Source: Clostridiales bacterium
Lineage (GTDB): Bacteria; Bacillota; Clostridia; Peptostreptococcales; Anaerovoracaceae
NCBI GenBank assembly: GCA_022775805.1
Contig: JALFKB010000058.1
Coordinates: forward strand, 1-40,120
Direction of reading: 5' to 3'
DNA: 40,120 bases
A program made the translations under genes and the position numbers. The notes beneath the pieces are model-generated. The model was not told where the DNA came from. It did not search any database and worked only from the letters and a program-made list of their open reading frames with translations. Of this stretch, positions 22,117-24,620 are shown piece after piece (positions within the stretch are counted from its first letter, which is position 1; the number at the start of each line of letters is the position of its first letter).

Positions 22117-22473
22117 ATGGGAAAAACTGCACAGCAGAATTTTGAAGCCGTTGAACTTTCAAACCTGATTTCGAGAGTTGGCGACTTAAAGGCAGACGGA
22201 TACAGATTAGTTCAGATTTGTGGTGTTAACCTTGACGATGACAATTATGAGATTCTCTATTCATTCGACAAGAACCACGAACTGCTCAGTCTGAGACTGG
22301 ACATCGCAATCGGTACAGAAGTTGAAAGTATTACAGGCATTTACTGGCCGGCTTTCATCTATGAAAACGAAATTCACGATCTGTTCGGTGTTCAGTTCAA
22401 TCACAGCGCATTAGATTACCAGGGAACTTTCTTCAGAATTGCTGAGGAAACTCCTTGGAAACCAAAGAAGTAA
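22117..22473 (+). CDS. echD: Ech hydrogenase subunit D, NuoC-like
   Basis: A 118-residue soluble subunit of the 30-kDa NuoC family. The family region is at the C-terminus: ESITGIYWPAFIYENEIHDLFGVQFN, with the E(R)EIxDLFG signature, followed by the FRIAEETPWKPK end. It lies at the interface of the large subunit and the membrane arm and carries no cofactor. AAGGAGG precedes the start; the stop is within the ribosome binding site of echE, 14 bp before that start, so the two are closely coupled. Confidence 0.9.
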   Translation: MGKTAQQNFEAVELSNLISRVGDLKADGYRLVQICGVNLDDDNYEILYSFDKNHELLSLRLDIAIGTEVESITGIYWPAFIYENEIHDLFGVQFNHSALDYQGTFFRIAEETPWKPKK

Positions 22474-22487
22474 AGGAGGCAAGAGTA

Positions 22488-23570
22488 ATGGGTAAAAGAA
22501 CAATAATGCCTTTTGGACCACAGCACCCGGTGCTTCCTGAACCTATTCATCTTGACCTGGTTCTCGAGGATGAAACAGTTGTTGATGTTATTCCATCAAT
22601 CGGCTACATCCACAGGGGTCTGGAAAAGCTGTGTGAAACAAAAGACTACAACCAGATGGTATATGTAATAGAACGTATCTGCGGTATCTGCAGCTTCGGA
22701 CACGGTTGGGGCGCATGTGCTTCAATGGAAGGAGCAATGGGTGTAACAATCCCTGAAAGAGCAGAATATCTGAGAACAATATTACATGAGCTGTCAAGAG
22801 TACACTCACATCTTCTGTGGCTGGGACTCATGGCAGACGCTTTCGGTTTCGAATCACTCTTCAACCACTGCTGGAGAGTAAGAGAATCCGTTCTCGACCT
22901 GTTCGAGAAGAACACAGGCGGCAGAGTTATCTTCTCAATCTGCAAGCCTGGCGGAATGAGAAAAGATATCAGCAATGAGAACCTTAAGGAAATGGTAGAC
23001 GTTCTGAATGGTCTGAAGGCTGAAATCAAGACAATAACTGACGTATTTGTTGAGGATGCATCAGTAAAGAACAGAATGACAGGTGTTGGTGTCCTGACTA
23101 AGGAAGAGGCAATTGAGCTCTGCGCAGTAGGTCCTACAGTAAGAGGATCAGGCGTTGTTCAGGATATCAGACTTACAGGAAATCACGGAGTATATCATCT
23201 CCTGGACTTCGAACCGGTTGTTGAGGAAGCAGGCGACTGCATGGCAAGAACAAAGGTAAGAATCAGAGAGGTATTCCAGGCAATCGAACTGATTGAAAAG
23301 GCAGTATCACAGATTCCTGACGGTCCTGTTGACTGCAAGGTTCCTAAGACTGTTGACGGCGAATTCGCAATTCGTCTTGAGCAGCCTAGAGGAGAAGGTT
23401 TCTACTATGCTAAGGGAGCCGGCACAAAGTTCCTGAAGAGAATGAGAGTAAGAACACCGACCAACATCAACATTCCTGCACTCGTTAAAGCTCTTAAAGG
23501 CGCCGATCTGGCAGATGTACCTATCCTGGTACTGACAATCGACCCTTGTATCAGCTGTACAGAAAGGTAG
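22488..23570 (+). CDS. echE: Ech [NiFe]-hydrogenase large subunit E
   Basis: A 360-residue catalytic subunit. The start at 22488 has AAGGAGG (22473-22479) eight bases upstream; a TTG at 22455 lacks a site and is rejected. Both nickel-binding motifs are complete: L1 RICGICSFGH (63-72) and L2 DPCISCTER (352-360). This marks a true hydrogenase rather than a complex I subunit, which has lost these cysteines. The chain stops directly after L2, so there is no C-terminal peptide to be removed by a maturation protease, as known for CooH. Reaction: 2 H+ + 2 e- to H2, with electrons from ferredoxin via EchF and EchC. Hyp maturation genes are not in this window. Confidence 0.95.
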   Translation: MGKRTIMPFGPQHPVLPEPIHLDLVLEDETVVDVIPSIGYIHRGLEKLCETKDYNQMVYVIERICGICSFGHGWGACASMEGAMGVTIPERAEYLRTILHELSRVHSHLLWLGLMADAFGFESLFNHCWRVRESVLDLFEKNTGGRVIFSICKPGGMRKDISNENLKEMVDVLNGLKAEIKTITDVFVEDASVKNRMTGVGVLTKEEAIELCAVGPTVRGSGVVQDIRLTGNHGVYHLLDFEPVVEEAGDCMARTKVRIREVFQAIELIEKAVSQIPDGPVDCKVPKTVDGEFAIRLEQPRGEGFYYAKGAGTKFLKRMRVRTPTNINIPALVKALKGADLADVPILVLTIDPCISCTER

Positions 23571-23579
23571 GTGTGACTA

Positions 23580-24620
23580 GTGGGAATTCTGATTAAAATT
23601 ATCGTAATAGTTGTGGCTTTACTGCTGAGTTCAGTAATCACAGCAAGACTTGGATTCTTCAAGTTCGCCGGTACCGTTATCGGCAGCATTTTCAAGAAGC
23701 CGGCTACTCTCATGTACCCGGTTAAGCCAAGAGAATGGCAGGAAAGAACAAGAGGTGCAGTAGGAATCGATGGAGACAACTGTATCGGTTGCGGAATCTG
23801 TGCCAATGTTTGTCCGACTGCAGCAATTGCAGTTGACAGAAAAGAAGGCAAGTGGACAATTGAGAGAATGCAGTGCGTACAGTGCAGCGCATGCGTTGAC
23901 AACTGCCCTAAGAAGTGCCTCACAATGGAAAATCAGTACACTATTCCTGACGTAGTCAAGGTAGTAGACACATATGATATTCCTGCAAAGGCAGCTAAGG
24001 CAGCAGGCGGCGCAGCTGACGCAGACGGCGACCTCACCTGTGCAGACACTTGCGTATTCTGTGGACTTTGTGTTAAGGCATGCCCTGCTGACGCAATCAA
24101 GGTTGACAGAAAAGCTAAATCATGGGAAGTTGACACTGATGCATGTGTTAAGTGCGGTGCCTGCATTGACAAGTGCCCTAAGAAGAGCCTGTCATTTGGC
24201 GGTGCAGCTGCAGCTCCTGCAGCAGACGAAGATGGCGATCTGACATGTGCAGACACTTGCGTATTCTGCGGACTCTGTGCGAAGGTATGTCCTGCTGATG
24301 CACTGGAAGTTGACAGAAAGGCAAAGTCATGGAAAGTTGACACTGATGCATGTGTTAAGTGCGGTGCCTGCATTGACAAGTGCCCTAAGAAGAGCCTGTC
24401 ATTCGGTGGAGCAGCAGCTCCGGCAGCTCCTGCAAAGAAGACCATTGCAGCAGTCGACGAAGAAAAATGCATTCACTGTGTAGCATGTGAAAACGAATGT
24501 GCAGCTGAAGCTATTAAAGTCGACACAGACAAGTGGGAACTTGATGAAGAAAAGTGCATAGGATGCGAAGCATGCGTAGGCATATGCCCTACAGAGGCAA
24601 TTTCTATGAAGGAAGCTTAA
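23580..24620 (+). CDS. echF: Ech subunit F expanded to a membrane-anchored octa-cluster polyferredoxin
   Basis: A 346-residue protein, far longer than a usual EchF with two clusters. GTG start at 23580, preceded by AGGTAGGTG. A hydrophobic N-terminal segment (about 3-22) and the EchF/NuoI-like KPATLMYPVKPREW (40-53) are followed by eight CxxCxxCxxxC motifs with first cysteines at 68, 99, 158, 189, 227, 258, 297 and 326. These form four ferredoxin-like pairs joined by Ala/Gly/Pro-rich linkers. Pairs 2 and 3 are near copies (see repeat). The predicted role is to pass electrons from soluble ferredoxin to EchC; extra clusters would form a wire, a store, or several docking sites. The seventh motif lacks the usual Pro after the last Cys. 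A terminator follows. Confidence 0.92.
   Translation: MGILIKIIVIVVALLLSSVITARLGFFKFAGTVIGSIFKKPATLMYPVKPREWQERTRGAVGIDGDNCIGCGICANVCPTAAIAVDRKEGKWTIERMQCVQCSACVDNCPKKCLTMENQYTIPDVVKVVDTYDIPAKAAKAAGGAADADGDLTCADTCVFCGLCVKACPADAIKVDRKAKSWEVDTDACVKCGACIDKCPKKSLSFGGAAAAPAADEDGDLTCADTCVFCGLCAKVCPADALEVDRKAKSWKVDTDACVKCGACIDKCPKKSLSFGGAAAPAAPAKKTIAAVDEEKCIHCVACENECAAEAIKVDTDKWELDEEKCIGCEACVGICPTEAISMKEA
24027..24416 (+). repeat. 207-bp tandem duplication inside echF
   Basis: Two copies at about 24027-24209 and 24234-24416, offset by exactly 207 bp (69 codons). A 70-bp stretch, 24127-24196 and 24334-24403, is identical, and most other differences are silent or conservative. Each copy encodes one 2[4Fe-4S] ferredoxin-like pair. 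Confidence 0.93.

Follow-up and report, generated by a model that had tools for sequence, protein, structure and literature searches.

The window, by which we mean the whole stretch of 40,120 nucleotides analysed here, is an entire contig of a 1.49 Mb assembly that comprises 139 contigs and is 94% complete. It carries a complete echABCDEF operon, supported by open reading frames and Pfam matches, for a hydrogenase that we take to belong to the group 4e [NiFe] class, and echF is the last gene of this operon (Table 1). Both CxxC motifs of the large subunit EchE, presumably the Ni-ligand patterns, were read by eye in the translation (RICGICSFGH and DPCISCTER). The TTG start listed for echE overlaps echD, and relatives suggest that the true start is an internal ATG (MGKRT) at 22488. 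EchC has an Ala/Pro-rich C-terminal extension of about 60 residues past its Pfam match. A secE-like open reading frame (named by eye) lies about 440 bases 3' of echF and is followed by nusG and ribosomal-protein genes; this gene order toward nusG is kept in the ech loci of many relatives.

Table 1. Genes of the ech operon and parts of EchF, with their positions in the window and the basis of each assignment.
Feature	Position	Strand	Basis
echA, NuoL/Mrp-type ion-pump subunit, 643 aa	18719..20650	+	ORF; Pfam Proton_antipo_M 1.1e-51
echB, NuoH-type membrane subunit, 289 aa	20650..21519	+	ORF; Pfam NADHdh 5.5e-43
echC, NuoB-type small subunit, 190 aa	21532..22104	+	ORF; Pfam Oxidored_q6 2.1e-31, residues 19-129 only
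echD, NuoC-type subunit, 118 aa	22117..22473	+	ORF; Pfam Complex1_30kDa 5.9e-10
echE, [NiFe] large subunit, 371 aa from TTG	22455..23570	+	ORF; Pfam Complex1_49kDa and NiFeSe_Hases
echF, expanded, 346 aa, eight [4Fe-4S] motifs	23580..24620	+	ORF, GTG start; motif count; AlphaFold2
Predicted transmembrane helix, EchF residues 2-23	23583..23648	+	Hydrophobicity; AlphaFold2 helix, pLDDT about 82-87 over residues 1-20; common to 17 relatives
Module M1, residues 60-116, canonical EchF/NuoI-type 2[4Fe-4S] head, charge 0, spacing 31	23757..23927	+	Motifs, profile scan
Linker 1, residues 117-149	23928..24026	+	pLDDT <50 at 138-148
Module M2, residues 150-206, middle copy, charge +1, spacing 31	24027..24197	+	Motifs, HMM comparison
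Linker 2, residues 207-218	24198..24233	+	pLDDT <50 at 209-217
Module M3, residues 219-275, middle copy, 91% aa / 89% nt identity to M2	24234..24404	+	Motifs, alignment
Linker 3, residues 276-288	24405..24443	+	pLDDT <50 at 278-285
Module M4, residues 289-343, acidic ferredoxin-like tip, charge -10, spacing 29	24444..24608	+	Motifs, HMM comparison

The product of echF contains eight CxxCxxCxxxC motifs, starting at residues 68, 99, 158, 189, 227, 258, 297 and 326 and thus arranged in four pairs, where 5000 composition-preserving shuffles of the protein gave a mean of 0.03 motifs and never more than two. Its N-terminus is hydrophobic, with a Kyte-Doolittle maximum over 19 residues of 2.89, compared to 1.53 anywhere past residue 40; the GTG start is a prediction, and a later in-frame GTG would give a shorter hydrophobic segment. 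The linkers between the pairs are rich in Ala, Glu, Lys, Pro, Asp and Gly, a composition established over 3285 linker residues of EchFs with at least four motifs. The initial annotation, which had described eight complete motifs in four pairs, an N-terminal hydrophobic segment and Ala/Gly/Pro linkers in a gene occupying the position of echF, is therefore borne out in its description of the protein. With eight motifs in 346 residues, this is a variant and not the canonical short, two-cluster EchF. The four pairs are not equal, however: the fourth is acidic with a spacing of 29 residues between its motifs, while the other three are approximately neutral with a spacing of 31, and a uniform repeat can be ruled out since the last module is of a different kind.

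An AlphaFold2 model built with 27 sequences (mean pLDDT 74.9, pTM 0.40) has a helix at residues 2-23, a second helix at residues 27-38, four dicluster modules (ten-residue means of 79-87) and three linkers below 50. The modules are predicted to fold with fair confidence and their relative placement is undefined. This is the pattern expected of four beads on flexible strings, which a shallow alignment could also produce.

EchF motif number among relatives

Because ferredoxin motifs are too common for searching, EchE was taken as the anchor for a survey of relatives. An EchE-like gene was present at E <= 1e-60 in 116 of the 349 genomes of the window's family, and the 118 loci fetched, together with the window, gave 119 loci, one of which (L149) belongs to another family of the order. 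EchF was read downstream of EchE at 103 of them; among the 16 others, the sequence stops at or inside EchE in five (L148, L150, L152-L154), EchE is distant (37-40% identity) in nine (L136-L144), and the remaining two are L095 and L135. The EchE tree retained 127 of 147 rows (match >300 aa, identity >45%), and four EchFs cut by a contig end (L064, L066, L098, L114) were excluded from the tree counts.

The window falls in a clade of 90 EchE rows, in which 85 EchFs could be counted: 24 have two motifs, 31 have four, 14 have six, 14 have eight and two have ten, so that 61 of the 85 are expanded. The numbers rise in steps of two, nested within the EchE tree, and the one odd number (a single motif, in L114) belongs to an EchF cut by a contig end. 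Over the 127 rows, at least 23 changes are required across all motif-number states, and the two-motif state changes at least 13 times, 8 of which are forced by well-supported branches. Since short-read assemblies may collapse repeats, some of the lower counts may be underestimates.

Outside the family, exactly two motifs were found in 27 of 28 EchFs at the level of the class (L174-L201, from the best 30 places among 40 matched genomes) and in all 27 new EchFs at the level of the phylum (L238-L264, from the best 30 places among 117 matched genomes). Thus 54 of the 55 best-matching EchFs from outside the family have two motifs, as the initial annotation had assumed for the canonical protein, and the open frames of the two-motif EchFs measure 106-178 aa, compared to 346 aa in the window. 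The exception, L192, has six motifs; its extra modules carry the VDRASKTW stretch found in its own head, which makes it look like an independent expansion, and, of the 16 genomes of its family, its own alone has this EchE. Among the EchFs examined, expansion thus appears nearly restricted to one family. The reservation that came with the initial annotation, that close relatives might all have a two-cluster EchF and the repeat be an assembly artefact, is answered by these close relatives, which share the expansion.

The N-terminal hydrophobic anchor has a narrower distribution. It was found in 18 of the 103 EchFs read (the window and 17 relatives), all in the window's genus, and EchFs lacking it begin at the usual EchF N-terminus. 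The pN/pS ratio of the anchor segment is 0.56, compared to 0.16 for the EchF head, as for a loosely but truly constrained segment. The description of EchF as an eight-cluster, membrane-anchored protein therefore stands for the window, with the refinement that eight is one value in a series running from two to ten and that the anchor belongs to a minority. In addition, three EchFs (L055:6225-7451, L056 and L057) have an extra C-terminal region ending in a common FPYL..KAA..MAERI-like stretch, which occurs even on the two-cluster EchF of L056; in L055, the only Pfam match beyond the ferredoxin domains was a weak one to CotO (E 0.15).

Kinds of ferredoxin module

The modules of the EchFs read fall into 102 heads, 88 middle modules and 23 acidic modules when the acidic class is cut at a charge of -5 or lower, a threshold of our own choosing (no module lies at -4). 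All 23 acidic modules are terminal and all occur in the window's genus. Heads and middle modules are approximately neutral with a motif spacing of mostly 31, and the charge of the middle modules never falls below -3. A spacing of 29 or 30 was seen in 25 last modules, 23 of which are strongly acidic and two of which (L075 and L076) are not. The free ferredoxins of the family genomes (n = 30) have charges of -12 to -6 (mean -9.2) and a spacing of 28 or 29; M4 resembles them in both spacing and acidity.

We compared the modules with two HMMs, one built from 39 two-cluster EchF heads and the other from the 30 free ferredoxins. All 88 middle modules are nearer to the EchF-head HMM (87.5 bits, versus 56.6 for the ferredoxin HMM) and, on these scores, most likely descend from the EchF head. 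Acidic modules are nearer to the ferredoxin HMM in 20 of 23 cases (66.9 versus 60.8 bits), with three the opposite way; this closeness of the tip to ferredoxin is modest (6 bits) and charge contributes to it. The training ferredoxins score 129.6 bits on their own HMM, which rules out M4 as a recent capture of the genome's own ferredoxin and suggests an old or convergent origin for the ferredoxin-like tip. In a tree of 112 modules, based on few alignment columns, the four kinds need three changes, the minimum possible.

In profile searches of the window's EchF, the top matches to residues 1-122 are NuoI-like (PRK08348, 72.5 bits; NuoI, 66.6 bits), both under cut-off. For M4 alone, the best family is the free-ferredoxin model NF058577 (49.2 bits, under its cut-off of 65), which separates it weakly from M2 (45.6 bits) and M3 (44.5 bits). 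The free ferredoxin of the same genome scores 92.5 bits on this model, and the whole of EchF passes the cut-off with 138.4 bits by summed stretches. By these scores, M4 is ferredoxin-like and not a member of the soluble 2[4Fe-4S] ferredoxin family NF058577. The acidic tip is absent from 38 of the 61 expanded EchFs of the clade, including those of two very close relatives, L047 (whose gene contains two N) and L048.

Candidate partners and a proposed role for the expanded EchF

In the usual account, Ech meets ferredoxin that arrives by diffusion. At 15 of the 119 loci, a gene for pyruvate:ferredoxin oxidoreductase (PFOR) is found no more than 3 kb downstream of echE, and the three of these tested by HMM all exceeded the cut-off; none was found at any of the 23 tip-bearing loci, over 1.3-3.5 kb of downstream sequence. 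When the comparison was limited to loci where 2 kb or more of downstream sequence was available and EchE identity exceeded 60%, PFOR neighboured 11 of 58 expanded and 2 of 26 two-cluster EchFs (Fisher p 0.33, kinship ignored), and the idea that a PFOR neighbourhood goes with expansion was dropped for want of a significant link. The window's own genome has two PFORs over cut-off. PFOR is the candidate partner best backed by gene neighbourhood in relatives, though not in tip-bearing genomes. The pairing of NifJ (PFOR) with Ech has been proposed for rumen butyrivibrios in an excerpt of an earlier report (PMC4478896). Two other loci of the window's genome may be mentioned here. On contig C55 (L237:1626-6600), an RnfB-like polyferredoxin with six CxxCxxCxxxC motifs in a 476-aa frame, under RnfB-type cut-offs, adjoins a PFOR gene and genes matching NfnA- and GltA/NfnB-type models. 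On contig C95 (L236:8626-12765), a NuoF-like frame of 586 aa (496 bits, under cut-off) precedes a frame of 793 aa that matches GltA/NfnB-type and NuoG-type models and runs off the end of the contig.

Profile searches for RnfC and [FeFe] hydrogenase covered 80 selected genomes. RnfC was over cut-off in 21 of the 80, in none of the 18 anchor-bearing genomes, the window's own included, and in one (G033, L062) of the 23 genomes in the supported clade of 23 rows that surrounds the window. Some genomes scored as lacking RnfC give weaker matches to it of about 160-206 bits, against a cut-off of 246. The RnfB-like architecture occurs where Rnf appears to be missing, although this is a single lineage and could be coincidence. 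A simple link between Rnf loss and module number was rejected, since RnfC also occurs in sister lineages whose EchFs have 8 and 10 motifs (G009, G030, G233). At three loci, two in the family (L081, L082) and one in another family (L149), rnfC lies within 3 kb downstream of echE; the two of these that were tested by HMM exceed the cut-off. [FeFe] hydrogenase A was over cut-off in 51 of the 80 genomes, a distribution uninformative on EchF, and not in the window's incomplete genome, where Ech may therefore be the sole hydrogenase. A divergent Ech is found in three genomes of the same genus (L145, L146 and L147, in G027, G023 and G018), with an EchE of 39-43% identity, likewise upstream of nusG. 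The EchF of this Ech is a two-cluster protein with a strongly basic tail, whose last 30 residues carry a charge of +14 to +17. G027 carries this divergent Ech plus a second Ech near PFOR (L100).

We propose, with a probability of about one half, that EchF is a membrane-anchored electron-collecting arm and that its tip, which resembles ferredoxin, accepts electrons from enzymes that reduce ferredoxin, for example PFOR. Assuming that the motifs are occupied by clusters, the first dicluster module would keep the ordinary role of EchF and pass electrons on to EchC/EchE, and the copies of the head module, added in tandem on flexible Ala/Pro linkers, would serve as relay and spacer. The acidic 2[4Fe-4S] module, which would mimic free ferredoxin and is often found at the far end in the window's genus, would dock directly at the ferredoxin site of PFOR or of another ferredoxin-reducing enzyme, and then either swing to the hydrogenase or relay electrons to it through the neutral modules. 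Any energetic benefit would presumably lie in low-potential electrons reaching the ion pump by a route that relies only partly on diffusing ferredoxin. As the tip has the charge and cluster spacing of ferredoxin, it most likely docks where ferredoxin docks, and it would be drawn to ferredoxin sites on PFOR-like enzymes and repelled by free ferredoxin. Its acidity is informative because the C-terminus of RnfB is positive in the excerpt of PMC11889175 and the tail of the divergent EchF of the same genus is strongly basic. The initial annotation had offered a longer wire, a buffer or multiple docking points, with a possible link to soluble electron-bifurcating enzymes; the presence of modules of different kinds speaks for a wire that ends in a ferredoxin-like docking tip rather than for a wire or buffer of uniform make-up. 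More tentatively, it is possible to regard Ech in the window's genus as a 'tethered-ferredoxin' hydrogenase, in which the ferredoxin shuttle has been partly internalised as the acidic tip of an anchored arm of variable length, pyruvate oxidation or another ferredoxin-reducing reaction is connected straight to the formation of H2 and the pumping of ions, and donor range or reach is tuned by the gain and loss of modules.

An alternative that we consider unlikely, though deserving of attention, is that EchF acts as an RnfB-like receiver, with soluble ferredoxin docking on a neutral module, the extra clusters lengthening the path and widening the target, and the acidic module acting as a regulatory or protective tail. 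RnfB indeed joins a transmembrane helix to ferredoxin modules whose fused number determines its variable size, with eight clusters in A. woodii (excerpts of PMC9588780 and PMC11889175), a separate ferredoxin over cut-off is kept in 33 of the 36 genomes tested, the window's included, and tipless proteins make up the majority of expanded EchFs. However, a tip of charge -10, like that of ferredoxin itself and the opposite of the RnfB C-terminus, should repel ferredoxin, and the basic-tail solution exists separately in the same genus, in the divergent two-cluster EchFs.

That a tandem ferredoxin repeat simply grows and shrinks by recombination, with no selected function, is improbable. Such drift would account for the rapid change in module number in the EchE tree and for the tip being missing in close relatives. 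It would also fit the similarity of M2 to M3 in the window, which at the nucleotide level exceeds that of the window's M2 to the M2 of the 13 other eight-motif EchFs (69-87%) and indicates recent duplication or gene conversion. The cluster-ligand motifs are conserved, however, with 427 intact motifs in the 103 EchFs and no remnant retaining three of the four Cys. The low pN/pS of the head, the invariably terminal position of the acidic module and the near-confinement of expansion to one family argue in the same direction. Moreover, M2 and M3 differ by a reciprocal charge swap (K...E in M2 and E...K in M3, at the same two positions, window 24027-24404), a difference that outlasts homogenisation in 11 of the 14 eight-cluster proteins. 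An electron buffer, in which eight clusters store electrons and smooth the pulses of fermentation, is less probable still: as many as ten cluster motifs occur per subunit, but by our reasoning a store would need neither a distinct acidic terminal module nor floppy linkers, and the few extra electrons held per complex would be small beside the soluble ferredoxin pool. Finally, although the assembly is in 139 contigs and repeats can confuse assembly, an artefact of assembly or annotation can be ruled out with near certainty, given 14 eight-motif EchFs (the window's included) in separate assemblies with differing linkers and module sequences, the conserved gene order toward nusG, and the fact that repeat collapse would reduce counts rather than increase them.

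Judged from sequence, the expanded EchF is real and conserved, and defines an Ech with a modular polyferredoxin EchF that is notable for its graded series and its ferredoxin-like tip. The natural series of 2, 4, 6, 8 and 10 motifs, with or without tip and anchor, in close relatives would provide a ready-made experiment on whether a polyferredoxin serves as a wire, a buffer or a docking arm. The 18 named relatives in the public collection, under names such as UBA1191 and 'Clostridiales Family XIII bacterium' that are in keeping with the GTDB family Anaerovoracaceae, are all metagenome assemblies, some of them from goat, roe deer and horse gut, and those with RUG names are presumably rumen assemblies. 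In gut and rumen habitats, the H2 produced by fermentation feeds methanogens.

Comparison with known systems

None of the open-licence papers searched described an expanded EchF, which is in line with the initial annotation's suggestion of an undescribed variant and is not proof of absence in print. The EchF of T. kivui has two [4Fe-4S] clusters, and extra four-cluster HycB subunits accompany it (excerpt of PMC4320612). The window's EchF shares with the canonical protein its operon position, its head module and the largely common KPATLMYP and ERTRG stretches before the first motif, and differs from it in having six extra cluster motifs, a predicted transmembrane helix and an acidic ferredoxin-like tip. 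CooF and HycB, in excerpts of PMC5861303 and PMC4320612, likewise supply additional clusters on the way from a donor enzyme to an Ech-type hydrogenase, but do so as separate subunits, whereas the added clusters of the window would be fused to EchF. MvhB (PDB 9sw6) and FwdF (PDB 5t5i), the latter with four modules and eight clusters (excerpt of PMC12517254), are among the best sequence matches to EchF and share its tandem 2[4Fe-4S] modules, but they are subunits of methanogen enzymes without an Ech head. The Eha and Ehb operons of methanogens encode the polyferredoxins EhaP, EhaQ and EhbK, with 6, 10 and 14 clusters respectively (excerpt of PMC3087415); these are similarly tied to energy-converting [NiFe] hydrogenases, but as separate products of archaeal operons, not as a lengthened EchF.

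EchF bears a close likeness to RnfB. By hydrophobicity and AlphaFold2, EchF has the RnfB-like layout of an N-terminal transmembrane helix followed by ferredoxin modules, and the whole protein scores 102.3 bits on the RnfB model TIGR01944 (cut-off 68.7), but it does so through its repeated ferredoxin stretches: the best of these covers only profile positions 103-167 of 190, and single pieces of the protein score 41.1 and 38.1 bits. In spite of this, a misnamed RnfB is ruled out by the ech operon, by the type of the head and by the missing RnfB FdI motif, CxxCxxxxxCx17C (as given in the excerpt of PMC9588780), since EchF has no Cys triple at i, i+3 and i+9. As far as the excerpts describe RnfB, the two proteins have in common a membrane anchor, a variable number of fused ferredoxin modules with up to eight clusters, a mobile terminal region and a place at the electron entry of a ferredoxin-driven ion pump. 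They belong to different complexes, the head of the window's protein is of the NuoI/EchF type, and its tail is acidic, unlike the positively charged C-terminus of RnfB, a possible 'fishing hook' for ferredoxin (excerpt of PMC11889175). By this comparison, what is new would be the lengthened EchF itself, for which RnfB is a close and already known precedent.
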